The notes under the pieces: model-generated
The model's input: the letters and a program-made list of their open reading frames with translations, nothing else
Databases searched by the model: none
What the model was told of the DNA's origin: nothing
Shown: positions 1,607 through 27,494 of the stretch, piece after piece
Layout of the letters: every line of letters begins with the position of its first letter
How positions within the stretch are numbered: position 1 is the first letter of the stretch
Translations under genes and position numbers: made by a program
Source of the DNA: Bradyrhizobium oligotrophicum S58
GTDB taxonomy: Bacteria > Pseudomonadota > Alphaproteobacteria > Rhizobiales > Xanthobacteraceae
NCBI RefSeq assembly: GCF_000344805.1
Contig: NC_020453.1
Coordinates: forward strand, 4,993,001-5,057,000
Length of the DNA: 64,000 nucleotides
Reading direction: 5' to 3'

Positions 1607-1877
1607 GCGTCGCCGCGGTGAACGCCGTATCAGGCGCTCGCACGACATTGTTGGATTTGCGTGGTCTTGGCTCTCCGGTCGGCGCCCAACGTTGACCCCA
1701 CTCGAGAGTCGGCATGTCTTCTATTCCGAATTGCAGCGGCTTGCCGGCGTCGATGTTGGACGTCGACGCATACTGCCGATAAAATGTCTGCAGCGCGACG
1801 GCGACGCCGTCAGACAGGCCGCAGATCACTCTGCCCGGGCCTACTTGATGCGGGACATCGCACGGACGCGTGTCATA

Positions 1878-2421
1878 CGTTTCAGACGGCGGGCATGGCT
1901 GAGCCATCTCGCGGCGATCTCCACCCGAGTTGTGGTCCTAAGTGAACCTCTTCTTCAAGAAGAGGCGCAGGGAAGACCGGGTATCGGCTGATACCCGCGG
2001 TCCGCGTGCAACAAAAAGCACGCGGCAGAACCACAGGTTCAGCCCAATATCCGGCCTTCCCTGCGCGACGGTTTTGCGGGTTATAGGCGCTCTCCCCGGG
2101 GATCGGCTGTCTTGCCCCCGTCGCCAGCGGATCATCATCACCACCGGCTTGGCATCAGCACCGCGATGCCAGGACCACACCATTTCGCCGTCGCATCGCT
2201 CCGTTCGTCGGCCCGGCTGTGACACCAGGCTGCAGAGCAACGCGCCCATCGCATCTCCGGCTCGACGCTCGTGACGATCGCGAAACGTCCCTCTTCAGCG
2301 AGCCGGGATGCGCGGAAATGTGCAGGTGATTTGCCCGACGGTGCAAGTGATAAGTCCGCGACAAACTGGCACGACGGGCAGTCGCCGCATGACGGCCATG
2401 CGGAAAATTGCTCGTCGTGCA
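1878..2421. repeat. Dispersed repeat, copy A
   Basis: About 545 bases that recur at 21589-22140 and 57645-58200 in the same orientation. Copy A is the most diverged at both ends. The shared core begins near a CCTCTTC/GAAGAGG hairpin (1949-1967) and includes a strongly folded segment (1966-2066). The three copies carry no conserved reading frame; overlapping ORFs differ between copies. No transposase is present. It could be a non-autonomous element or a structured RNA-bearing repeat. Confidence 0.85.
1966..2066. other. Conserved folded core of the repeat (three-way-junction-like)
   Basis: An outer stem pairs GCGCAGGGAAGACCGG (from 1966) with CCGGCCTTCCCTGCGC (2051-2066). It encloses two perfect hairpins: GGGTATC/GATACCC (1979-1985 with 1990-1996, loop GGCT) and CCGCGTGC/GCACGCGG (2002-2009 with 2018-2025, loop AACAAAAA). 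Copy B has GGCC where A and C have GACC, which makes its outer stem fully paired. The first loop also changes (GGCT to GACT) while its stem is kept. This suggests the fold is under constraint as RNA or as DNA cruciform. Confidence 0.6.
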
Positions 2422-2665
2422 ATCTGGCCGAGCCCTGTCGGGAAGCAGAGCTGATCAATTGGCCTCGGTCCGTAGCGTCGACAAAGCGCAGCTGCCCACC
2501 GATGTCGGTGACCACCAGCGGTAGGGCACGGCGCTTCGCACCTTGCCCGCCTCGCCGAGCAGGGCGGGCGCTCATCATCCTCCCGCGAATTCGAACCAAG
2601 ACGCTAGAGCGGCGTTGGTGGCAGCCGGACCGAGTGCACATCCGGCGCCAGAACCGGAGGCCGGC

Positions 2666-3016
2666 ATGACTGTCCGCAAATTCGCTTTGACAGACGTTTC
2701 CTTCGCGCGCTCGCCCGGACAGGACGGCGACGTGTTCGCGGCCAATGTCATCGACCAGCGACACGGCGCGCCGGTCAGCATCGGCTACGGGCGTTACGCG
2801 CCCAACCAGAGCCTCGTCGAGACGATCGCCGTGGACGATGTCATGGTGGTGCTCCAGGGGCAGCTGTCGGTCTCTTCCGACGGCAGCACGGTGACCGCCG
2901 GCGCAGGCGAGATCGTACACATGCCGAAGGGCTCCGCCGTCACCATCCGCTCCCATGACGAGGGTGCGGTGACCGCCTACGTCACCTATCCGCATTGGCA
3001 GCAGGCGTCGGGCTGA
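2666..3016 (+). CDS. Small cupin-domain protein (EutQ-like)
   Basis: A 116-residue single-domain cupin. The middle contains the beta-barrel pattern: R-Y-A-P-N-Q, a hydrophobic V-M-V-V-L-Q-G strand, an A-G-E-I-V-H-M-P-K-G turn, and a terminal T-Y-P-H-W. Such cupins are annotated as EutQ-like; the substrate is unknown and few classical metal ligands remain. The ATG at 2666 has GGAGG just upstream. It lies 245 bases after repeat copy A and 10 bases before the broken FAD oxidoreductase copy, so the intact ancestor was probably a cupin-oxidoreductase pair. A frameshifted paralogue is at 58315. Confidence 0.7.
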   Translation: MTVRKFALTDVSFARSPGQDGDVFAANVIDQRHGAPVSIGYGRYAPNQSLVETIAVDDVMVVLQGQLSVSSDGSTVTAGAGEIVHMPKGSAVTIRSHDEGAVTAYVTYPHWQQASG

Positions 3017-3026
3017 CGCCGCCCAC

Positions 3027-3751
3027 CGCAATGGCGGCCAGGCACAGAATGCCTCGGGACGCCTGACGCGCTCGCAATGGATCAAGCGCTGGGGGCTCGA
3101 CATCGCCAAGCGCATGCACGCCGAGGTCACCGAGGGCCTCGAGGCTTTTGAGGAACTGGTGCGATCGAGCCCTGTCGACGTCGAGCCACAGCGCGGCGGT
3201 CACCTCTACATCGCTCACCGCCAGCGCAATCTCGACAAGATCGCAGCGGAATCAAAAGTACTCAACGATGTGTTCGGCTACGCCTCGCACGTGATCTCGC
3301 ATGAGGAACTGGCGAACGACTTCGTCAACGAGGCCGAGGCCGTCGGCGCGGTGCACCGCTTGGAACAGGCGTGCATCCGGCCAAGCTCGCCTTCGGCTAT
3401 CTGCAGATGGCGCGCGCGCTCGGCGCGCGGGTCCATCCCGCAAGCCCGGTCCAGCGCATCGAGCAACGCGACGGGAAGTTCGTGCTGCGCACGCCCGGTG
3501 GCGCTGTCGGTGTGAACGGCGTCGGCATCGCCACCTGCGCCTATACGTCGCTCGGGCTCACGCCAAACTTGTCCGGCCGCTGCATGCCGATCCTGTCGAA
3601 CTCGCTGGTCACACGCACGCTCACCGCGGCCGAACTCACCGACACGCGCACCTTGCGCTTCTACTACCGGCTGCTGCCGGATAACCGGATTCAGATTGGC
3701 AGCCGCAGCGCCATCACGGGTGCCGACGCCACGCATGACCGCCACCTCCAG
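3027..3751 (+). pseudogene. Truncated, frameshifted copy of the FAD oxidoreductase at 37822-39210
   Basis: This stretch matches 38104-38865 of the intact FAD-dependent oxidoreductase gene at high nucleotide identity, on the same strand. It lacks the N-terminal FAD-binding region and the C-terminal third. A 4-base deletion near 3356 shifts the frame after V-G-A-V-H, and a 33-base deletion near 3641 removes 11 codons. Homology stops sharply at CTCCAG (3746-3751), where an oppositely oriented chemoreceptor fragment begins. It is therefore a rearrangement scar and cannot make a working enzyme. Confidence 0.9.
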
Positions 3752-4363
3752 CCGGCCAGGCGAAACGCGACATCGACATTGCGGCTGCGCTTGAATTCGT
3801 CGAAGAAGCCTTGCCCGAAGGTCAGGCCGAACTCGACCGAACCGAGATGCCTGCCGGCCGAGACGATCGGCACCACGCCGCGGAGCCCGAGGCCGGCGAC
3901 GCCGCTCTCGAGCCCGACGATCGGCTTGCGCTCGGCGTTGGCCGCCACCACGGTCTTGCGAAAGCCCGACAGATCGTCGCCGAACTTTGCCGACTGGTGC
4001 ACGCGCAGAAAGGACGTCGCCGGCGGGGTGTGAAACTGAAACTGGTCGACGCCGTAATCGGACTTCATGCTCGCCATGCCCGCGCCGAACAGCCGCATCA
4101 AGGCGTCGCGGTCGTTCTGCGCCATGGCATCCTGGACGGCGGGAATCTTGGCGACCACCGCGCTCATGGCTTCCGCACGGGTCGACTCCAGCTGCAAACG
4201 CAAATTGAAGGCGTCATATTGGGCGTGGAGCTCGCGCTCGTTGGCGCGGTCGATGATGCCGCCGATGATCCACATGGCGACCACGAGCACGAACAAGGCC
4301 GTCGCAGCGGCACCGATCACCAGAGAAGGTGATCCGGGTTCTCAAGCCACCAAACTTCAACAT
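3752..4363 (-). pseudogene. Chemoreceptor (MCP) sensor-domain fragment
   Basis: The reading frame on the minus strand gives a membrane anchor (L-V-I-G-A-A-A-T-A-L-F-V-L-V-V-A-M-W), a helical stretch and a Cache-type sensor segment ending F-G-L-T-F-G-Q-G-F-F-D-E-F-K, as in bacterial methyl-accepting chemotaxis proteins. It lacks the second membrane span, HAMP and signalling domains: it ends at the junction with the FAD-oxidoreductase remnant. The natural start (M-L-K-F-G-G-L-R-T-R, ATG at 4363) is out of frame with the membrane anchor because of an indel near 4320. It is damaged at both ends. Beyond the start, 4364-4557 holds no other gene I can support. Confidence 0.75.
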
Positions 4364-4557
4364 GCAATCCTCGAACGTTGACCGGTGCTCGAGTATTGTA
4401 GCGCTGAAACTAATTATTCCTGAATGAGTCAACCAATGTTGCGAACTAACAGCAAGGGTGCGCAGCGAGGCGAGAGGCCGCCGTCGACACTTCCGCTCCC
4501 GCTCCGTTCCCTGCCGCAAAATCTTTTAGTTGCACGACGATCACAACTCAACAAGGA

Positions 4558-4592
4558 CAGACACTCGGCGCCCTGACGGAGCCGAGTGTCTG
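4558..4592 (-). terminator. Terminator-like hairpin after the rhodanese gene
   Basis: A perfect 12-base stem, CAGACACTCGGC (4558-4569) with GCCGAGTGTCTG (4581-4592), lies 17 bases beyond the 3' end of the minus-strand rhodanese gene. The following sequence is only weakly T-rich, so it may be a rho-independent terminator of modest strength or a 3'-end stabiliser of the YeeE-YedE-rhodanese transcript. Confidence 0.6.
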
Positions 4593-4608
4593 ACGGATCG
4601 GAGAGGGC

Positions 4609-4950
4609 CTAGGCGACAGGACCGCCATGCGCGCGCCAGCGGCTCATGCCGCCGGCATAGTGGCGGATGTCCTGCCGTCCTGCCGCCAACGCCCGCCGCA
4701 ATGCCGTGGCCGAGCGGCCGCCGGCCTGGCAGATCAGAACTACCGGCTTGTCGTGCACAAGACTGTCCGGATCGAAACGCGACAGCGGATGATTGACTGC
4801 GCCCGGAATGTGACCGCCCTTGAACTCGTGCGGCTCGCGGACATCGACGATCACACAGCTGCGCTGCTGATGCGCCTTGACCAGCTCGTCGTGCTCGATG
4901 GCCGGCACGCTGGTCGATCCCGTCAGCTTGTTGAACAATCCTGCCAGCAT
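4609..4950 (-). CDS. Rhodanese-domain sulfurtransferase
   Basis: A 113-residue single-domain rhodanese. It shows V-I-V-D-V-R-E-P-H-E-F near residue 34 and the active-site loop C-Q-A-G-G-R-S near residue 74, with the catalytic Cys that carries a persulfide. There is no signal peptide, so it is cytoplasmic. It is the last gene of a minus-strand group with two YeeE/YedE half-transporters, which suggests it accepts or relays sulfur from imported thiosulfate or sulfane sulfur. Confidence 0.9.
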   Translation of the reverse strand: MLAGLFNKLTGSTSVPAIEHDELVKAHQQRSCVIVDVREPHEFKGGHIPGAVNHPLSRFDPDSLVHDKPVVLICQAGGRSATALRRALAAGRQDIRHYAGGMSRWRAHGGPVA

Positions 4951-4998
4951 TGGATGAACCTTTCGACTGTTGATGAGGACTGGTCGGACGAAAGCCGC

Positions 4999-5556
4999 CT
5001 AGCCCCGCAAGCGCCCCGCCCTCGACTCGGACGCTTCGACCCAGAAGAAGAACGCCCCTGCGCCAATCGCGAGCGCGACGAACCAGACACCATCCGGCAC
5101 GCCGGTGATATCTGGCAGCCGCACCTTGCCGAGCGCCCAGACATTGAGGATGTGGGCCTTCACCCAGTCGAAGCTCAGCGCATAGAGGATCGCGCCGACG
5201 ATCATGCCGAACGCGCCGACCGCGGCATGCACGCTGCCGCTGGCGATCGCGCCGAGCGCAGTGCCGGGGCAATAGCCGTAGACGACCATGCCGATGCCGA
5301 ACAGCGCCGCACCGAGCGCGACGGCCAGCATGTTGGCATCCTTGACGTAGTATTTGGTGTTGCCGGTATCGACCAGCAGCAGCACGCCGATGCCGCCGAC
5401 GACGATCGCGGTGCCCATCACCTTCAAGACCGTGAAGTCGCGCAGCCGGAACTGGTTCTCGATCACGTTGCAACTCGTGACCTTGCCCTGCTGCAGGAGA
5501 TAGCCGAACACGGCGCCCATCAACAGCGGGCCGGCGATGCTCGTCAATGACGTCAT
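4999..5556 (-). CDS. YeeE/YedE-family sulfur transporter, half-size (second half)
   Basis: A 185-residue membrane protein with about five hydrophobic segments and the family motif Y-G-Y-C-P-G-T-A-L-G-A, whose Cys is typical of sulfur-transport YeeE/YedE proteins. K-V-T-S-C-N-V-I near the N-terminus is a second typical Cys site. It lies 10 bases after the partner half at 5567-6118, so the two probably form the equivalent of one full-length transporter. Known relatives import thiosulfate or move sulfane sulfur; the exact substrate here is inferred from the rhodanese and sox context. Confidence 0.85.
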   Translation of the reverse strand: MTSLTSIAGPLLMGAVFGYLLQQGKVTSCNVIENQFRLRDFTVLKVMGTAIVVGGIGVLLLVDTGNTKYYVKDANMLAVALGAALFGIGMVVYGYCPGTALGAIASGSVHAAVGAFGMIVGAILYALSFDWVKAHILNVWALGKVRLPDITGVPDGVWFVALAIGAGAFFFWVEASESRAGRLRG

Positions 5557-5566
5557 GGCCCTTCTC

Positions 5567-20445: not shown

Positions 20446-21531
20446 ATGCTCAGTCCGTCAGCTTTGACGTTCATGTGCGGACTGCTGGCAGGCGGCGTGC
20501 TCGGGGTCGCCGGCCGCGCGGGTCGCTTCTGCACGCTCGCGATGCTCGAGGACGCCTTCTTCGGCGCCGACACGCGGCGGCTCAAATCCTTCGCCTTGGC
20601 TGCGGCCATCGCGCTGGTCGCGACCCAATTGCTCGCCGGCTTCGGCCTCGTCGATCTGTCCCGCTCGATCTATCTGACCTCCTCCATTCCGCTCGGCGGC
20701 GCCATCCTGGGCGGCTTGTTGTTCGGGATCGGCATGGCGCTGGTCGGCACCTGCGGCTTCGGGACCTTGGTTCGCATCGGCGGCGGCGATCTGCGCGCCA
20801 TCGTGGTCTTTCTCGTGCTCGGCGTCTCGGCGCTGGCGGCGATGCGCGGGCTCATTGGCTTCATGCGCGTCGGCCTGATCGAGCCGCTGTCCGTGCGTCT
20901 GCCTGACGCGATGACCCAGGGCATGGACTCGCTGCTGTCGCCTGCGCTCGGCTCCTATGCCAGGCCTGTTCTCGTCTCTCTGATGGCGGTGGCGCTCGCG
21001 GCCTGGGCGCTGGCCGATGGCCGGCTGGCAAGATCGCCGCGGCTGTTGTTGTCGGGGCTTGCCGTCGGCGGCGCGGTCGCCTTCGGCTGGTTTGCAACGG
21101 GATGGCTGGGGAATGACGATTTCGATCCGGAGCGGGTCGCCTCGCTCACCTTCGTCGCGCCGCTCGGCAACACGGTGCTGTACATCGCCACGCTCTCCGG
21201 CAGCCACGCCGACTTCGCGATCGGCTCGGTCCTGGGCGTCATCCTGGGGTCCTTCGCCGCCGCGATGGTCTCGCGCGTCTTCCGTTGGGAAGCCTGCGAC
21301 GACGCGCGCGAGCTGAAGCGCCACATGATCGGCGCGCTGCTGATGGGCACCGGCGGCATCATGTCGATGGGCTGCACCATCGGCCAAGGCCTGTCCGCAT
21401 TCTCGACCCTCGCACTGTCGGCGCCGCTCACAATGCTGGCGATCGCCTGCGGCGCACGCCTTGGACTCGAATACACCATGACCGGCGAATGGCGGCCGGC
21501 CTTGCGCAACCTGCTCCGGATGAGCCATTGA
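20446..21531 (+). CDS. Full-length YeeE/YedE sulfur transporter (SoxT/TsuA-like)
   Basis: A 361-residue multi-pass membrane protein of the sulfur-transport family. Its Cys motifs are G-R-F-C-T-L-A, V-G-T-C-G-F-G-T-L-V-R-I-G-G-G and S-M-G-C-T-I-G-Q-G. It follows soxR by 139 bases on the same strand, with GGGGAGG before the ATG. It is the fourth YeeE/YedE gene of the island, which is unusually many; each may serve a different sulfur species or direction. Confidence 0.85.
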   Translation: MLSPSALTFMCGLLAGGVLGVAGRAGRFCTLAMLEDAFFGADTRRLKSFALAAAIALVATQLLAGFGLVDLSRSIYLTSSIPLGGAILGGLLFGIGMALVGTCGFGTLVRIGGGDLRAIVVFLVLGVSALAAMRGLIGFMRVGLIEPLSVRLPDAMTQGMDSLLSPALGSYARPVLVSLMAVALAAWALADGRLARSPRLLLSGLAVGGAVAFGWFATGWLGNDDFDPERVASLTFVAPLGNTVLYIATLSGSHADFAIGSVLGVILGSFAAAMVSRVFRWEACDDARELKRHMIGALLMGTGGIMSMGCTIGQGLSAFSTLALSAPLTMLAIACGARLGLEYTMTGEWRPALRNLLRMSH

Positions 21532-21588
21532 CGTCTGCACGCAAGGGGAATGATCCCGCGCGTCCCGGCGCGACATCGTCAGGGGCAC

Positions 21589-22140
21589 CTTCTCCACGTT
21601 TCAAACACCAGGCATGACTGCGCCATCTCGCGGCTGCTTCCGCCCGAGCTTTGCAATCAGTCGACCTCTCCTTTGAAGAAGAGGCGCAGGGAAGGCCGGG
21701 TATCGACTGATACCCGCGGTCCGCGTGCAACAAAAAGCACGCGGCAGAACCACAGGTTCAGCCCAATATCCGGCCTTCCCTGCGCGACGGTTTGACGGGT
21801 TATAGGCGCTCTCCCCGGGGATCGGCTGTCTTGCCCCCGTCGCCAGCGGATCATCATCACCACCGGCTTGGCATCAGCACCGCGATGCCAGGACCACACC
21901 ATTTCGCCGTCGCATCGCTCCGTTCGTCGGCCCGGCTGTGACACCAGGCTGCAGAGCAACGCGCCCGTCGCCTCCCCGACTCGACGCTCGTGACGATCGC
22001 GAAACGTCCCTCTTCAGCGAGCCGGGATGCGCGAGAATGTGGAGGTGATTTGCCCGACGTGGCAAGTGATTAGTTTGCGGCAAACTGGCACGACGGGCAG
22101 TTGGCGCATGCGGGGCATGCGAAGATTACCCGTCGGGCAG
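21589..22140. repeat. Dispersed repeat, copy B
   Basis: About 550 bases matching copies A and C, in the same orientation. It starts at CTTCTCCACGTTTCAAACA, runs through the folded core, and ends after GGGGCATGCGAAGATTACCC. In this copy the outer stem of the core is fully complementary. It marks the left edge of the AT-richer accessory block. Confidence 0.85.
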
Positions 22141-22600
22141 ATGGACAGGGTTAGGAGATAACCGTGGGAAGCCGTGGCCGAATACGGACATGACCACGGA
22201 GAGAGGACCGTAAACGGACGTGGATGCACTAGCTTCGTGCGGGCCCCGCTCTAAACGGCGCAACGAGGGGAGTTCGATAGCGAGCGAAGCTAAGGAGTCT
22301 TATGCGGGCCAGCAGGCGCCACCGAAATCCCGTCACCGTAATCCTACGGTGAAGTTACGCCGCTACTCACGGCTGGTATGCGTTGGCTCATGCCCCTCTC
22401 CGCGTTGCCAGCTTGCCGCAGGAAGGCTGCTGAGCTAACAACTTCGATGTCCACGATATTCACGTAGAAGAGTAATACCATTAGCACGCAATCCACATTT
22501 CTTCAGTTTTATCAATGCATTAGATCGACAATTAATATTTCCGCGCTTACCAACAATAGCTAGTGAATAGACGCGCTCTTGATACTATGCGAGACATGCA
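22141..22600. other. Intergenic stretch, possible structured sequence; no gene seen
   Basis: The first 300 bases are GC-rich and full of short complementary pairs, for example CGGGCC near 22240 with GCGGGCC near 22306, and CGTAATCCTACGG. They have no coding frame, tRNA or known RNA that I can identify. From 22441 on, the composition drops to AT-rich and probably contains the promoter of the downstream HTH-CHAT operon. Confidence 0.45.
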
Positions 22601-22603
22601 TAT

Positions 22604-22615
22604 ATTTCGCGAAAT
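22604..22615. promoter_or_regulatory. 12-base palindrome upstream of the HTH-CHAT operon
   Basis: ATTTCGCGAAAT is a perfect palindrome 18 bases before the TTG start at 22634. It is placed where an autorepressor would block transcription or initiation. Binding by one of the downstream small HTH proteins is inference. Confidence 0.5.
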
Positions 22616-22633
22616 CGTTCATAGGAGAATCGA

Positions 22634-22942
22634 TTGGATACTTCCGATGAATTGCTGAAGGCTATTTTGGCTACTGTTGCACGGAATACATTTCCGCCTG
22701 CGGTTATTACCAAGATTGTGGCTCCGACCTCGGGAAGCGAAAAACAGCTCCTGGCGTACAACCTGTGCGACGGGCAGACGCCACAAGCCGAGATTTGCAA
22801 GAAAGCAAAACTCGACAAAGGAAGCTTTAGCCGCTCTCTAACGAAGTGGATAGAAGCCGGAGTCGTTGTGCGTATAGGCAGCGAGCGCCTGCCTCTACAC
22901 GTTTATCCGCTCACCAAGGTCTCGGCGAGAGACGAAGATTAG
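22634..22942 (+). CDS. Small winged-helix DNA-binding protein
   Basis: A 102-residue protein starting with TTG after a strong AGGAGA. The middle reads A-E-I-C-K-K-A-K-L-D-K-G-S-F-S-R-S-L-T-K-W (helix-turn-helix), then A-G-V-V-V-R-I-G and L-P-L-H-V-Y-P-L, which look like a wing. It resembles MarR-like winged-helix regulators in miniature. First gene of the five-gene run ending in the CHAT protease; the next gene starts three bases after its stop. Composition is AT-richer than the flanking sox genes, suggesting horizontal transfer. Confidence 0.7.
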   Translation: MDTSDELLKAILATVARNTFPPAVITKIVAPTSGSEKQLLAYNLCDGQTPQAEICKKAKLDKGSFSRSLTKWIEAGVVVRIGSERLPLHVYPLTKVSARDED

Positions 22943-22945
22943 GCC

Positions 22946-23155
22946 ATGAACGAAGAAATACTGGAGAAGCTCGACATCCTCATAAGGCTGCAAGCTGCAG
23001 CTCTGACGGCGGCGATGGAATCTTCAAAGGAAAAGATCCTATTCCTTTCGGCCGCAGGCCTCCGCCCAACGCTGGTCGCTGACATCCTCGGGACTACAGC
23101 CAACAACGTCAACGTCACGCTGTCGAAGAGCCGCAAGCCGTCGAAAGCGAAGTAA
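22946..23155 (+). CDS. Small helix-turn-helix protein 1 of 3
   Basis: A 69-residue protein. An N-terminal amphipathic helix (E-I-L-E-K-L-D-I-L-I-R-L) precedes a sigma-region-4-like helix-turn-helix: A-A-G-L-R-P-T-L-V-A-D-I-L-G-T-T-A-N-N-V, followed by a basic tail S-K-S-R-K-P-S-K-A-K. It shares its layout with the next two genes, though identity is low. It sits in an operon three bases after the winged-helix gene. Function unknown; DNA binding and possible dimerisation through the helix are inferred. Confidence 0.7.
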   Translation: MNEEILEKLDILIRLQAAALTAAMESSKEKILFLSAAGLRPTLVADILGTTANNVNVTLSKSRKPSKAK

Positions 23156-23170
23156 AGCAGGGGAGCGACC

Positions 23171-23377
23171 ATGGAAAGCAACGAAACTCTGGAGGAGCTA
23201 CGCGCCATCAAGATGCTGCTCATCCTGAATGCGCTCGCGCAGGGCTGCCAGCAGAAGCACGTCGCTGCGGCGCTCGGCATTAGCGACGCCACGCTAAGCC
23301 GGATGTTTCCGAAGGGATTCGCCAGGGAAATTGCCAAAATTGTTGAACGCCGCCTTGTTCACACGGACACGGCATGA
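23171..23377 (+). CDS. Small helix-turn-helix protein 2 of 3
   Basis: A 68-residue protein with the same plan: N-terminal helix (E-T-L-E-E-L-R-A-I-K-M-L-L-I-L), then A-Q-G-C-Q-Q-K-H-V-A-A-A-L-G-I-S-D-A-T and L-S-R-M-F-P-K-G. AGGGGAG precedes the ATG. Its TGA overlaps the ATG of the next gene (ATGA), so the two are translationally coupled. Likely DNA-binding; targets unknown. Confidence 0.7.
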   Translation: MESNETLEELRAIKMLLILNALAQGCQQKHVAAALGISDATLSRMFPKGFAREIAKIVERRLVHTDTA

Positions 23378-23547
23378 CGGAAGAACAGGCCGCTCAGATA
23401 ATCAAGGAATTGGAAATCATCCGCAAGCTTAAGCTCGCGGAAATGCTCGAGCGCGGCTATTCCCAATCACAACTCGCACAAATCCTCGGCGTGAGCCAGC
23501 CTACAATCAGCCGTATGGCGCCGAAAGTAACCGGCAAGAAAGGCTGA
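23374..23547 (+). CDS. Small helix-turn-helix protein 3 of 3
   Basis: A 57-residue protein. It begins M-T-E-E-Q-A-A-Q-I-I-K-E-L-E-I-I-R-K-L-K and has the helix-turn-helix E-R-G-Y-S-Q-S-Q-L-A-Q-I-L-G-V-S-Q-P-T-I, then S-R-M-A-P-K-V. The last motif (S-R-M-x-P-K) is shared with the preceding protein, so these two are the closest pair. It overlaps the previous gene by four bases and the CHAT gene starts four bases after its stop. Confidence 0.7.
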   Translation: MTEEQAAQIIKELEIIRKLKLAEMLERGYSQSQLAQILGVSQPTISRMAPKVTGKKG

Positions 23548-23551
23548 AGCG

Positions 23552-24583
23552 ATGATAGGCAGGACCGCCGTAATCGACTGGTCAGGCAACTACGAAGAGA
23601 ATTGCGAACGTCTTGCGAAGCACCTCGGCACTAGCAAAATCCGTCGGAAGTTGTTCGATACAATATACGGTCGCGGATCGAAACCGCGATCGCGCAAGCA
23701 GATGCGTATCGATGCCCAGCTCAAGGCGGGCGACGAGCAACAGGCCCAGAATGAACTAGACCATCTTGCGCGTTATGGCCTTATCCGCCGCGAAGATAAT
23801 AATGGGCAAGTGAAAGATGGCAGCAAGTATTTGTACAGTAAGGATTCAAACGTTCGCGCCCATCGCAAGATGATCGTTAAGTTCGCCGATAATCCCAAGC
23901 TAGCCGCAGCTATACCGACCAAGCGAAGGCCCGCGGTGAAGGTATCCAACGTAAAGACTGTCACCGTTCGCGCGCTAAAGAAGCTCAAGCGACTCAATGT
24001 GTTGTACTTGACAGCCAATCCCGACGAGCAAAATTCATTGCGGATCGATGCAGAAGTTCGGCAAGTTCAAGAAGCCGTGCGTGGATCAAAGCTACGAGAC
24101 AACATCGAATTACTTTATCGACCTGCTGCGGACCTCGATTCCTTAGTCGACGGACTGAATGATTATGCGCCTGGAATTGTACATTTTTCGGGGCACGGCT
24201 ACAGCGGAGGCCTCGCTGTCGATCACGCTAAGGTCACTCGGCCGAAGAGAAGGATTCTGACATTTGAGCATCTTGGAAAGGCGTTCGCCGCAGTCGATAC
24301 TCCTCCTCGGGTCGTCGTTTTGAACGCATGCGAAAGTGCTGGCGCAGAAAAGGCGTTGTTGCCTTTGGTTTCGGCCATTATCGTGATGAGGGACAGCGTA
24401 AGCGATATTGCGGCAACGGCATTAGCAACCCGTTTCTACGCAGCGATTGCTGCCGGTCAATCACTGAAGTCCGCATTCAAGCAAGGTGTGCTTGCAGTAG
24501 AGCATGCGTCAATAAATGAGGCCGACATTCCGCAGCTAATCACTGCGCCAGGCGTGAATTCGGCCACTTTTTATCTCGTGTAA
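23552..24583 (+). CDS. Winged-helix/CHAT caspase-like protease
   Basis: A 343-residue protein with two parts. Residues 1-110 read like a winged-helix domain: Q-N-E-L-D-H-L-A-R-Y-G-L-I-R-R-E, then a wing ending S-K-Y-L-Y-S-K-D. Residues 145-343 are a CHAT domain: L-N-V-L-Y-L-T-A-N-P, E-V-R-Q-V-Q, the catalytic His H215 in V-H-F-S-G-H-G, and the catalytic Cys C260 in V-L-N-A-C-E-S-A. Both catalytic residues are present, so it should be an active cysteine protease. CHAT proteases act in bacterial conflict systems, often activated by a sensor. Here the sensor may be the DNA-binding part or the four small HTH partners encoded immediately upstream. The native substrate is unknown. Confidence 0.85.
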   Translation: MIGRTAVIDWSGNYEENCERLAKHLGTSKIRRKLFDTIYGRGSKPRSRKQMRIDAQLKAGDEQQAQNELDHLARYGLIRREDNNGQVKDGSKYLYSKDSNVRAHRKMIVKFADNPKLAAAIPTKRRPAVKVSNVKTVTVRALKKLKRLNVLYLTANPDEQNSLRIDAEVRQVQEAVRGSKLRDNIELLYRPAADLDSLVDGLNDYAPGIVHFSGHGYSGGLAVDHAKVTRPKRRILTFEHLGKAFAAVDTPPRVVVLNACESAGAEKALLPLVSAIIVMRDSVSDIAATALATRFYAAIAAGQSLKSAFKQGVLAVEHASINEADIPQLITAPGVNSATFYLV

Positions 24584-24776
24584 CTCACGGAGGAACGCGA
24601 TCTTCGCTACCCGATGAATGCCGGTAGACCAGAGTTCTCCTGGGGGTGATATGCTGAAAGCGCTGGCAATGAGGCACCGAAAAGCGCGGAGGCTCAGGAT
24701 TGAGTAGCGTTAGAGGCGCCCCACGGTCCTTCTCAATTTTGTACATAGGTCGAGGGCGGAGCCCAAAGTCCATTGT

Positions 24777-25589
24777 GTGATAGACTATACTGATAAAGAA
24801 TGGTGCCACTTAGATTTTTTTTTGCGCCCGGTGGCGAGTGGGATTACAATGCTTGTTGATGTCTCCTGCTGGCATTTTGAGTACCTGCACGACACACCGC
24901 AGGATCGCGCGCTTCGCGCATACGATGCGTCACTCGTGCGGGGTCCAGAGTATTACGACTTCCCCGACACCGAGGCCCTGCTGAAGCACCTGGACGGGCC
25001 TGGGGACGACGACCGCTGCCGATTTCAGCAGAGCATAGCGGAGCGGCTAGGGCAGGACCCGGATGTCGCGGCTGTAAAAGCGCTCCGCACACCGCTCAAG
25101 AACCTAAAACACTTTCGGGCTTATCGTCGCCGCCAATATGACAAGTACCATGCGGCGGCTCGGCAGATTGCTGACGGGAAAGCGTCGACGACGGATCGAA
25201 AGCTTATCGACGAGTTCGACCTCGAGTTCAACGCCTCCAAGATATCACTAGACCCGGGTCAGATCTTGTTTCATGGCCGATGCAACGACCAACTCGTCGC
25301 AGAGCATCCCTACCCTAGCTACGTCTCTGCTACACTCGATCCCATCGTTGCCCTAAACAGCGCTTACAGGCGGGCTGGCGTTGACTGCATCAATGGACGC
25401 CCAATCGTTCTGGTACTTAAGTTGTGCGTGTCGCTGCGTTCGCTATGGGGCCACGTCGGGAAGTCTCAGGAATGGGAGCTGCTCCTGCCACGCGGCATAG
25501 ATTGGAAAGAGACAGAGCGCCGGCCGGGGAAGGCCTTCGACATCATTCACGCCACAGCAGTTGCCGAGCCCAAACGTCCGAAAACATGA
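24777..25589 (+). CDS. Putative ADP-ribosyltransferase-fold protein
   Basis: I do not recognise a named family, but the C-terminal 110 residues show the order of an R-S-E class ADP-ribosyltransferase. R168 is in I-L-F-H-G-R, S184-A-T186 in Y-V-S-A-T-L-D, and E232-x-E234 in Q-E-W-E-L-L-L-P-R-G. The first 150 residues are charged and helical. There is no signal peptide. It lies 193 bases after the CHAT gene on the same strand and shares its composition, so it may be a second effector or an independent toxin. The start is either the GTG at 24777 or an ATG at 24849; the latter loses only 24 residues. No obvious antitoxin gene is adjacent. Confidence 0.55.
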   Translation: MIDYTDKEWCHLDFFLRPVASGITMLVDVSCWHFEYLHDTPQDRALRAYDASLVRGPEYYDFPDTEALLKHLDGPGDDDRCRFQQSIAERLGQDPDVAAVKALRTPLKNLKHFRAYRRRQYDKYHAAARQIADGKASTTDRKLIDEFDLEFNASKISLDPGQILFHGRCNDQLVAEHPYPSYVSATLDPIVALNSAYRRAGVDCINGRPIVLVLKLCVSLRSLWGHVGKSQEWELLLPRGIDWKETERRPGKAFDIIHATAVAEPKRPKT

Positions 25590-26483
25590 GGTCAGCTTAC
25601 GAAAAACCGGCTTTTGGAGCGGCCAGTATTGATCTGGAGTGGCGCACCGCGGCAGTTGCACCCACGGCAGTGACCGCATTGGAGCCGAACAGGCCAAGCA
25701 CCGCCGAGCAGCAGCCCCGTGCCAACCTAAATTACGACCTTCGAGACCAGGATGATCCTTCGACGCTCGGCAGCTTCGGCGAGCTCCTGTAGCCGCGCCT
25801 CCATTCGGGATATCTTTCGCTCGAGCCGTCTTGATCCATCAGACCAACTGTTCTCCGCGATCTTTGCACCACGAAGCGATTGGGCCTGCGTCGCTGGCGT
25901 CAGATCAAGACTTGAACGACCCCACAAACCTCCGGTCAGCCGCATCCCAGCCGTCGGGCGGTTTGAGGTTCATGACCTGCATGAGGAAGGTGTGCGGTCC
26001 GGAGAGGCGAACACGCTCCTGGCGAGCGCCGGGGCCGGATGACGGCGCCACGGAGGATGGCCAGCAGATAGCACCACGATATCCGCTCGTGACGGCCTAC
26101 CCTACTCCCACTCGATCATCTTGAGCGTGACTAAGACATTGATCCTAAAGGCTTTTGCCGAGATGTCGTCTCAGGACGCCGATTACGAGACCGGCGATTT
26201 TCTTTCATCTTGATTCCACAGGAATATTTTGCGCGCTCATGCCGAGGTCCCCTTCAGCAACTATCGGCTACTATTGCCCTGCACAGCAATGAGTAACTGC
26301 TGACCTTGGAGTCAGCCGCTAGCGAATGAGAGCTGAGCGAAGACCATAGGTCGCTGTCGGCCGGCGACGCAAGCTCTGGACGCTGCAATGGCCGACATCC
26401 TCCCCGCTTGCCGACGATGTATCACGGCCACTCCGCGCAGCAGCGCCGTCGCGACGATCCTGGAGCGTTCGCAGGGATGTCGA
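25590..26483. other. Gene-poor stretch with an att-like remnant
   Basis: Nearly 900 bases with short, mutually overlapping frames on both strands and no recognisable domain. A minus-strand frame at 25727-25945 has a coiled-coil-like R-M-E-A-R-L-Q-E-L-A-E-A-A-E-R-R but no convincing start. The stretch separates the CHAT/ART block from the ABC-transporter operon and contains the guaA-end-like sequence at 26100. Confidence 0.5.
26099..26115. other. Candidate attachment-site remnant resembling the guaA 3' end
   Basis: ACCCTACTCCCACTCGATC on the plus strand reads in reverse as codons I-E-W-E-stop, the last codons of guaA. The real guaA end at 61128-61147 shares CCTACTCCCACTC and ATC around one mismatch, in the same orientation. 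No guaA coding homology continues to the right. The 3' end of guaA is a well-known integration site for genomic islands. Confidence 0.35.
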
Positions 26484-27494
26484 TCAAGGCAGCTCGGCGA
26501 CACGATGACAGGCGACGTAGTGGTGTGATCCGATCGCATCCAACGCAGGAAGACGCTGCGCGCATTTGTCAATCGCGGCCGGACAGCGCTGCGCGAAACG
26601 GCAGCCGGGCGGCGGGTCAACCGGACTCGGCGGATCGCCCTTGACGAGATGGCGGCGTTTCAATTCGTCGCGCATGGGTCCGGGCGGCGCGGCGGCCGCA
26701 ATCAGAGACCAGGTATAGGGATGGCGCGGCGCAGCGAATATCTCGGCGGCGGGCGCCTGCTCGACGATCTTGCCGAGATACATCACCGCGACCTCGTCGC
26801 AGAATTTCTGGATCACGCCGAGATCGTGCGAGATGAAGATGTAGGTGAGATCACGCTCGCGCTGCAGCCGTTTCAACAGATTCAGGATCTGTGCCTGGAT
26901 CGCCACGTCGAGCGCGGATACCGCCTCGTCGCAGACGATCAGATCGGGCTCGGGCGCCATCGCCCGCGCGATGCAGAGCCGCTGACGCTGGCCGCCCGAG
27001 AATTGATGGGGAAACAGATCGGCTGCCTGCGGCGGCAGGCCGACGTCGCCCAGCAGCCTGCGCACCCGCTCGTCGCGCTCGCTGCGCGTCCCGATTCCGA
27101 GCAGGTCGAGCGGCTCGCGGATCTGGTCGCCGGCGCGGCGGCGCGGGTTGAGCGCCGAGAACGGGTCCTGGAAGACGATCTGCAGATGCCGCCGCACCTC
27201 GCGCAGCGGCCGACCGGTGAGGCTGGCGATGTCACGGTTGCCGAACACGATCTGGCCCGATGTCGCCGGCACCAGCCGCATCACCGCTTGCGCGGTGGTG
27301 GACTTGCCCGAGCCGCTCTCACCGACGATGCCAAAGGTGGTGCCGCGGCAAACGCGGAAGCTGATGCCGTCGACTGCATGGACGAAAGACGGCTTGCCCT
27401 GGCGGCGGCCGGCCGGGAAATGCACGACGAGGTCGTTGACGTCGAGCAGCACCTCGCGGGTGCCTGTCCCGCGGATCGCGTCAGCCAAGCTCAT
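26484..27494 (-). CDS. Peptide-type ABC importer ATPase (OppF/DppF-like)
   Basis: A 336-residue ABC ATPase. Walker A is G-E-S-G-S-G-K-S-T, the Q-loop F-Q-D-P-F-S-A-L-N-P, signature F-S-G-G-Q-R-Q-R, Walker B L-I-V-C-D-E-A-V, H-loop I-S-H-D-L-G. The C-terminal oligopeptide/dipeptide region has C-R-F-A-Q-R-C-P. The Walker B Glu is intact. ATG at 27494 overlaps the preceding ATPase gene by four bases. Last gene of the operon. Confidence 0.93.
   Translation of the reverse strand: MSLADAIRGTGTREVLLDVNDLVVHFPAGRRQGKPSFVHAVDGISFRVCRGTTFGIVGESGSGKSTTAQAVMRLVPATSGQIVFGNRDIASLTGRPLREVRRHLQIVFQDPFSALNPRRRAGDQIREPLDLLGIGTRSERDERVRRLLGDVGLPPQAADLFPHQFSGGQRQRLCIARAMAPEPDLIVCDEAVSALDVAIQAQILNLLKRLQRERDLTYIFISHDLGVIQKFCDEVAVMYLGKIVEQAPAAEIFAAPRHPYTWSLIAAAAPPGPMRDELKRRHLVKGDPPSPVDPPPGCRFAQRCPAAIDKCAQRLPALDAIGSHHYVACHRVAELP

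Follow-up and report, generated by a model that had tools for sequence, protein, structure and literature searches.

What is the constant part of an operon in which a run of miniature DNA-binding-type genes leads into the gene of a CHAT protease: the protease, or the small genes in front of it? The question is raised by five same-strand ORFs at 22634-24583 of the window, that is, of the whole 64,000-nucleotide stretch of Bradyrhizobium oligotrophicum S58 DNA analysed here. The initial annotation had placed five ORFs there, and both their coordinates and the gaps between them were verified. In operon order they encode 102 aa (with a TTG start), 69 aa, 68 aa, 57 aa and 343 aa, and the successive gaps are 3, 15, -4 and 4 bases, HTH-C overlapping HTH-B2 by 4 bases. 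Plus-strand ORFs of at least 55 aa cover 99% of this stretch; in 500 dinucleotide shuffles of it the coverage averaged 46% and reached 81% at most, and a 343-aa ORF arose in 0/500. The features referred to below are the following.

22579..22606, plus strand: promoter-like site upstream of g1, a consensus match only (10/12 positions)
22634..22942, plus strand: g1, small winged-helix protein, 102 aa, TTG start (MarR_2 match, orthologues)
22946..23155, plus strand: HTH-A, small HTH protein, 69 aa (orthologues at 6/6 loci)
23171..23377, plus strand: HTH-B2, small HTH protein, 68 aa (orthologues at 6/6 loci)
23374..23547, plus strand: HTH-C, small HTH protein, 57 aa (HTH_3 match; orthologues at 6/6 loci)
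23552-24583, plus strand: whole effector (N-domain and CHAT), 343 aa
23552..23944, plus strand: effector N-domain, predicted winged-helix adaptor, residues 1-131
23945..24583, plus strand: effector CHAT protease domain, residues 132-343, with His215 and Cys260

The promoter-like site is not functional evidence, since the region holds three such sites against 1.9 +/- 1.3 in shuffles. A palindrome scan of the 300 bases upstream of g1 found no palindrome common to the loci described below, single ones occurring at some of them.

By its domain and its His-Cys pair, the effector of the window is a CHAT peptidase, and its predicted activity is proteolysis. Namely, the CHAT domain scores 53.1 bits against a Pfam cut-off of 24, and His215 and Cys260 lie at the positions that the initial annotation had assigned to the catalytic pair, both residues being invariant in 5/5 CHAT members of the set described below. 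The closest Foldseek match of the CHAT part is SAVED-CHAT (PDB 8tl0, E 1.1e-12), and the PADLOC SAVED_CHAT match spans model positions 295-461 of 498 only. The effector had also been credited with a winged helix of its own at the N-terminus, which the predicted structure bears out (pLDDT 87-93 over residues 21-110); no Foldseek-type match reaches E 0.001 or better, so that the support is modest, and the structural matches include the winged helices of TubR and Orc1. The host genome, a single contig of 8,264,165 bases, contains six CHAT matches, five of them above cut-off, and at the other five CHAT loci (3.4-4.0 kb each) the effector N-domain has no match.

Pfam's general HTH models exceed their curated cut-offs for HTH-C only, which passes two of them (HTH_3 with 28.8 bits vs a cut-off of 23, and HTH_23); none does so for g1, HTH-A or HTH-B2, and the MarR_2 match of g1, at E 8.9e-5, is under the curated cut-off. 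Over the loci, the HTH proteins have 57-124 aa and a pI of 7.9-10.0, and the putative recognition helix of HTH-B2 carries ATLSRMFPKG. Three of the small proteins had been thought to share one layout resembling region 4 of sigma factors. This holds for HTH-B2 and HTH-C and has to be withdrawn for HTH-A, whose sigma-factor match has an E of 0.011 and whose second-best scores, those to non-A genes, are 21-55 vs 129-300 among HTH-A proteins. HTH-A would thus be a remote relative of HTH-B2 and HTH-C at best, and in its sequence it is the most distinctive small gene of the cassette.

How widely does this set occur, and does it follow the protease? In an effector-led search of the order, 8/397 genomes matched at E 1e-8 or better. 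Three of the eight matches (the window, G182 and G265) included the N-domain, and small HTH genes lie upstream in 3/3; the five others (L009-L013) were confined to the CHAT part, with no g1, A, B/C or N-domain profile match within approximately 3.5 kb. Consequently, the co-occurrence of N-domain and small HTH genes that the initial annotation had anticipated was indeed found. Nine plasmid CHAT loci (L015-L023, approximately 8.6 kb) gave no g1, A or N-domain match except a g1 match at chance level (7.1 bits, E 0.87). An HTH gene near a CHAT gene is not unusual by itself, since L018, one of these plasmid loci, has B/C-profile matches of 17.3 and 13.2 bits, and at L015 an annotated 309-aa winged-helix gene precedes the CHAT genes. 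L015 (plasmid NZ_CP039902.1) is also a dense conflict-type cluster, with three CHAT, two TIR, one caspase and one winged-helix gene annotated within approximately 8.7 kb. The plasmid CHAT proteins match the window effector mainly within the CHAT part; one Nostoc plasmid record covers 83% of the effector query (residues 44-327) at 26.6% identity.

Searches led by g1, over genome samples that overlap each other, matched 2/398 genomes of the phylum, 3/367 of the class (one weak, G1328), 2/247 of the family of G265 (one weak, G916), 1/28 of the family of G182 and 2/146 of the genus; only part of the first-look candidates were scored, and all genome-search counts are lower bounds. Across 84,980 species, each represented by a single genome, an effector-led scan returned 0 loci, and a joined alignment of g1, HTH-A and N-domain returned four, namely a Bauldia sp. 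MAG (the same locus as G182), the Alphaproteobacteria MAGs HGW-11 and IP29b_bin.162 (the latter being G1233) and Mesorhizobium loti LU (G265). Both patterns used in the joined scan were drawn from g1, so that cassettes with a diverged g1 would escape. Together with the window and the same-genus copy G752, these loci are the six distinct full cassettes. All six are alphaproteobacterial. The cassette is rare, yet it is spread over at least four families (groups f1, f16, f24 and f237), its carriers being soil and environmental bacteria.

A wide search with an 11-row profile matched 46/398 genomes, all at 26.5 bits or less except G000, the host genome of the window, and G265. In the 28 loci that were checked from the 44 low-scoring genomes (approximately 1.5 kb on each side), 25 had one HTH match and three had two; by eye, L053 and L060 look like ArsR-type regulators, and the two matches at L057 lie on opposite strands. 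No array like those at L032 or L041, to which we return below, is among these 28, and the low-scoring loci are treated as background. As for viruses, the window effector has no match among phage records, and viral contigs gave none with any of three queries (effector, g1 and the joined alignment). One viral match to the M. loti effector (L084) was dismissed as chance: it spans 27 residues, the rest is dissimilar, and no cassette profile exceeds 3 bits there.

At all six loci the genes follow one another on one strand as g1, A, (B1), B2, C and effector, neighbouring genes being separated by 0-15 bases or overlapping by 1-59, depending on the start codons chosen, and no cassette gene has an internal stop codon. 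B1 lies 5' of B2 in 4/6 loci and is missing from the window and G752. The identity of the window copy to the other five is 36-72% for g1 and 41-80% for HTH-A, each of which has an orthologue at 6/6 loci, HTH-A always as the best match. In 92/102 directed comparisons of the small HTH genes, a gene's best match is its positional counterpart; the 10 others lie among B2 and C, always with M. loti as one partner, and A is never confused. Between the window and G752 the identity is 71% for g1, 80% for A, 74% for B2, 77% for C and 52% for the effector, with pN of 0.12-0.33 and pS of 0.64-0.82 over all genes (0.21 vs 0.79 for g1), while HGW-11 vs IP29b and window vs HGW-11 give pN of 0.12-0.35 and pS of 0.72-0.87. 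Synonymous sites in these pairs are near saturation, hence we give no ratios; the values point to purifying selection on every gene of the three locus pairs. What is more, the identities of the HTH genes covary with that of the N-domain over 15 locus pairs, which are not independent of one another (Spearman rho 0.55-0.88). In other words, the cassette is, as far as sequence comparison goes, one repeatedly inherited, ordered unit.

This unit stands out from its surroundings. The G+C of the window cassette is 0.534 vs 0.64 for the whole window, the corresponding values for cassette and rest at the other five loci are 0.576/0.623, 0.552/0.696, 0.52/0.653, 0.494/0.563 and 0.455/0.626, and the cassette is therefore AT-rich relative to its surroundings in 6/6 loci. 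Read by eye, the ORFs on either side of the cassette differ from one to another of the five other loci, which suggests that the cassette moves as its own unit; no obvious defence island was seen in the flanks by eye. Synteny with four relatives of the same genus extends over the left flank to approximately 21.5-21.8 kb, and no synteny of the right flank is seen in the compared stretches, leaving no clean junction. Near the end of this synteny, upstream of the operon, an inverted repeat lies at 21684-21785, with 20-base arms that are 95% complementary and 62 bases apart. On the other side, 193 bases past the CHAT gene and on the same strand, a 270-aa ORF (24777-25589, plus strand) is unassigned in both Pfam and PADLOC at E 1, and its layout bears a faint likeness to ADP-ribosyltransferases. 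Rfam has no match across the 64-kb window.

Could the small proteins then simply be the regulators of a mobile element, concerned with its replication, partition or excision control, next to a protease gene that is a bystander? HTH-B2 and HTH-C do have weak matches to RepB and KorA/TrfB models, the N-domain has the winged helices of TubR and Orc1 among its matches, and a transposase-like ORF (by eye) adjoins the L035 copy. That said, reading the flanks by eye revealed no integrase, replication or transfer gene that recurs beside the cassettes, the Bauldia g1 has no match among 72,556 plasmid or 50,697 phage records, and the enzyme carries a winged helix in the same polypeptide, which links the two functions. 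We therefore regard this explanation as very improbable.

The last gene encodes a CHAT protease at five of the six loci; M. loti LU is the exception, and it retains g1, A, B1, B2 and C as well as the effector N-domain, whose identity to the other N-domains is 28-33%. The M. loti catalytic part is not similar to CHAT (best score 15.4 bits, E 7.6) and instead matches plasmid proteins of Gordonia (87.4 bits) and Rhodococcus (75.1 bits). In these actinobacterial proteins (L042, 3419-4453; L043, 3443-4459) the M. loti-type catalytic domain stands behind unrelated N-termini, and their annotated neighbours include no HTH array. The M. loti domain and its plasmid relatives have in common the motif KDWGGEQxD...LKGP...NGDQ, which we take to resemble that of PD-(D/E)xK-type nucleases. 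From the conserved GGEQxD...LKG pattern, the domain looks like a candidate nuclease; it belongs to no named family in the libraries searched and has no solved structure by sequence match. Its predicted structure is poor (pLDDT mostly below 50) because the catalytic part had been aligned to CHAT. Since the HTH set and the N-domain are constant and the enzyme is variable, we take the HTH set to be the core of the cassette and the enzyme to be interchangeable, and the faster change of the effector relative to the HTH genes points the same way.

This bears directly on the circuit that the initial annotation had proposed, a sensor-repressor circuit centred on the protease. Under that proposal an invader signal would lead CHAT to cleave one or more of the HTH proteins and so set off a transcriptional response, as with the CRISPR-linked CHAT and Lon proteases. 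The CHAT fold of the effector is indeed nearest to that of SAVED-CHAT, and protease circuits with sigma-type partners are known, namely Csx29 with Csx30 (PMC10028731) and the type III CRISPR set CalpL/T/S, comprising a Lon protease, an anti-sigma and a sigma factor (passages of PMC11417357). However, in M. loti LU a domain other than CHAT accompanies the N-domain and the full set of five HTH genes, which argues that the HTH proteins are not chiefly substrates of CHAT; moreover, with 57-124 aa they are too small for an obvious separate regulatory half. As a general account the circuit is decidedly unlikely, and cleavage of HTH proteins by CHAT may occur within the CHAT members.

If the HTH set is the core, one may ask whether it occurs with yet other enzymes. 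At L032 (G916, 3236-5564, minus strand) five consecutive small genes lead up to the gene of an HNH protein (38.5 bits vs a cut-off of 21.4); three of the five have clear g1-profile scores (31.9, 22.0 and 18.1 bits), one scores 8.3 bits and one has no match. At L041 (G1328, 1841-3969, plus strand) five mini HTH genes precede a 255-aa protein, a candidate nuclease by a weak NucS match under the cut-off (E 0.0047), and then an AbiEi-type gene; three of the five are A-like (30.3, 29.0 and 25.1 bits) and two are winged-helix genes (g1 profile, 23.3 and 11.1 bits). Among 2675 control ORFs the best g1 score was 7.1 bits, and the A profile had 0 matches. Both arrays were found via g1, so that their g1 matches are partly circular, while the A-like matches at L041 are independent; the B1/B2/C profile, with 22.3 bits on the other strand at L041 vs 17.3 bits on a control, does not discriminate. 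A profile search did not find the effector N-domain in L032 or L041. Judging by these profile scores, the two arrays are probably distant relatives of the cassette and not members of it, and docking through the N-domain cannot be general, since the arrays do without it. An ambitious extension is that the HTH array is itself the sensor, its different HTH subunits jointly recognising foreign DNA by sequence or topology and the assembled array recruiting and firing a plug-in effector (CHAT, nuclease-like domain or HNH), and that these loci would be the first of an immune class. We consider this possible, if doubtful.

A simpler alternative is addiction of the toxin-antitoxin kind, in which the HTH proteins would be antitoxins and autorepressors, no invader would be sensed, and the effector would kill once the HTH proteins were lost. 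The architecture would suit it, given small DNA-binding-type genes upstream of a single effector in a compact unit whose neighbourhoods vary (by eye), and HTH-C has weak matches to the antitoxin models VapB15, HipB and HigA. These matches, however, are all far under their cut-offs, and no toxin-antitoxin model is above cut-off for any of the five operon proteins, the best being VapB15 with 20.2 bits vs 80. In addition, four or five antitoxins per toxin would, in our judgement, be unusual, and the effector changes faster than the HTH genes (52% vs 71-80% identity between the window and G752). On balance, we find addiction unlikely.

The reading that we tentatively prefer, and that we hold to fall a little short of an even chance, is that the cassette is a compact, horizontally exchanged conflict device on a miniature HTH core, with an HTH assembly controlling the effector. 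The HTH proteins would form a hetero-assembly on DNA, and the effector would use its winged helix to dock either on this assembly or on the DNA to which the assembly is bound. At rest the assembly would keep the effector inactive and probably repress the operon; foreign or disturbed DNA would alter the assembly, by which the effector would be freed or clustered. It would then damage the cell or the invader, by protein cleavage in the CHAT loci and probably by nucleic-acid cleavage in M. loti.

Large sensors such as NTPases, cyclases and Cas complexes are the usual route to the discovery of defence systems. If the conflict-device reading is true, a unit of HTH proteins of 57-124 residues and a winged helix would easily be missed, because its members are filed as transcriptional regulators, and the CHAT versions would be a caspase-like protease under DNA-level control without CRISPR. 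An effect that is common to the CHAT and non-CHAT versions must stem from the HTH core.

The initial annotation knew of no such system, and the set has no name in any Pfam, NCBIfam or PADLOC model scanned. Apart from the CHAT part, the cassette proteins have weak partial matches only in PADLOC-DB 2.0.0 (2023), to mad1 (17.8 bits), PDC-M05A (18.2 bits) and the HTH parts of CARF/Csa3, and a literature search of titles and abstract openings, largely without subscription papers and bioRxiv, found no description of such a set. Both CHAT effectors and systems that exchange their effectors around a fixed core are of familiar kinds; a core made of arrayed miniature HTH proteins is not among what we found in the libraries and literature searched. 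Domains of ECF-like HTH type occur in some conflict systems according to passages of PMC8195603, and the passages of that source on conflict systems do not contain the HTH cassette set.

Four known systems are nevertheless close enough to be compared. With SAVED-CHAT of type III CRISPR (PDB 8tl0) the likeness lies in the CHAT fold; here a winged helix, and not SAVED, precedes CHAT, and a repeat scan of 21500-26500 in the window found no direct-repeat family. Craspase (Cas7-11, the TPR-CHAT protein Csx29, Csx30 and RpoE; PMC10028731 and PMC9729208) likewise ties a CHAT protease to transcription-type proteins, but it has TPR where the window effector has a winged helix, and the HTH set is found also without a CHAT enzyme. 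CalpL/CalpT/CalpS is likewise small and joins a protease to transcription-type proteins, and differs in that CalpL is a Lon-type protease with a SAVED sensor (passages of PMC11417357). Finally, type II toxin-antitoxin modules with HTH antitoxins resemble the cassette in having small DNA-binding-type genes 5' of an effector; here, in contrast, there are four or five HTH genes, and the effector itself bears a winged helix.
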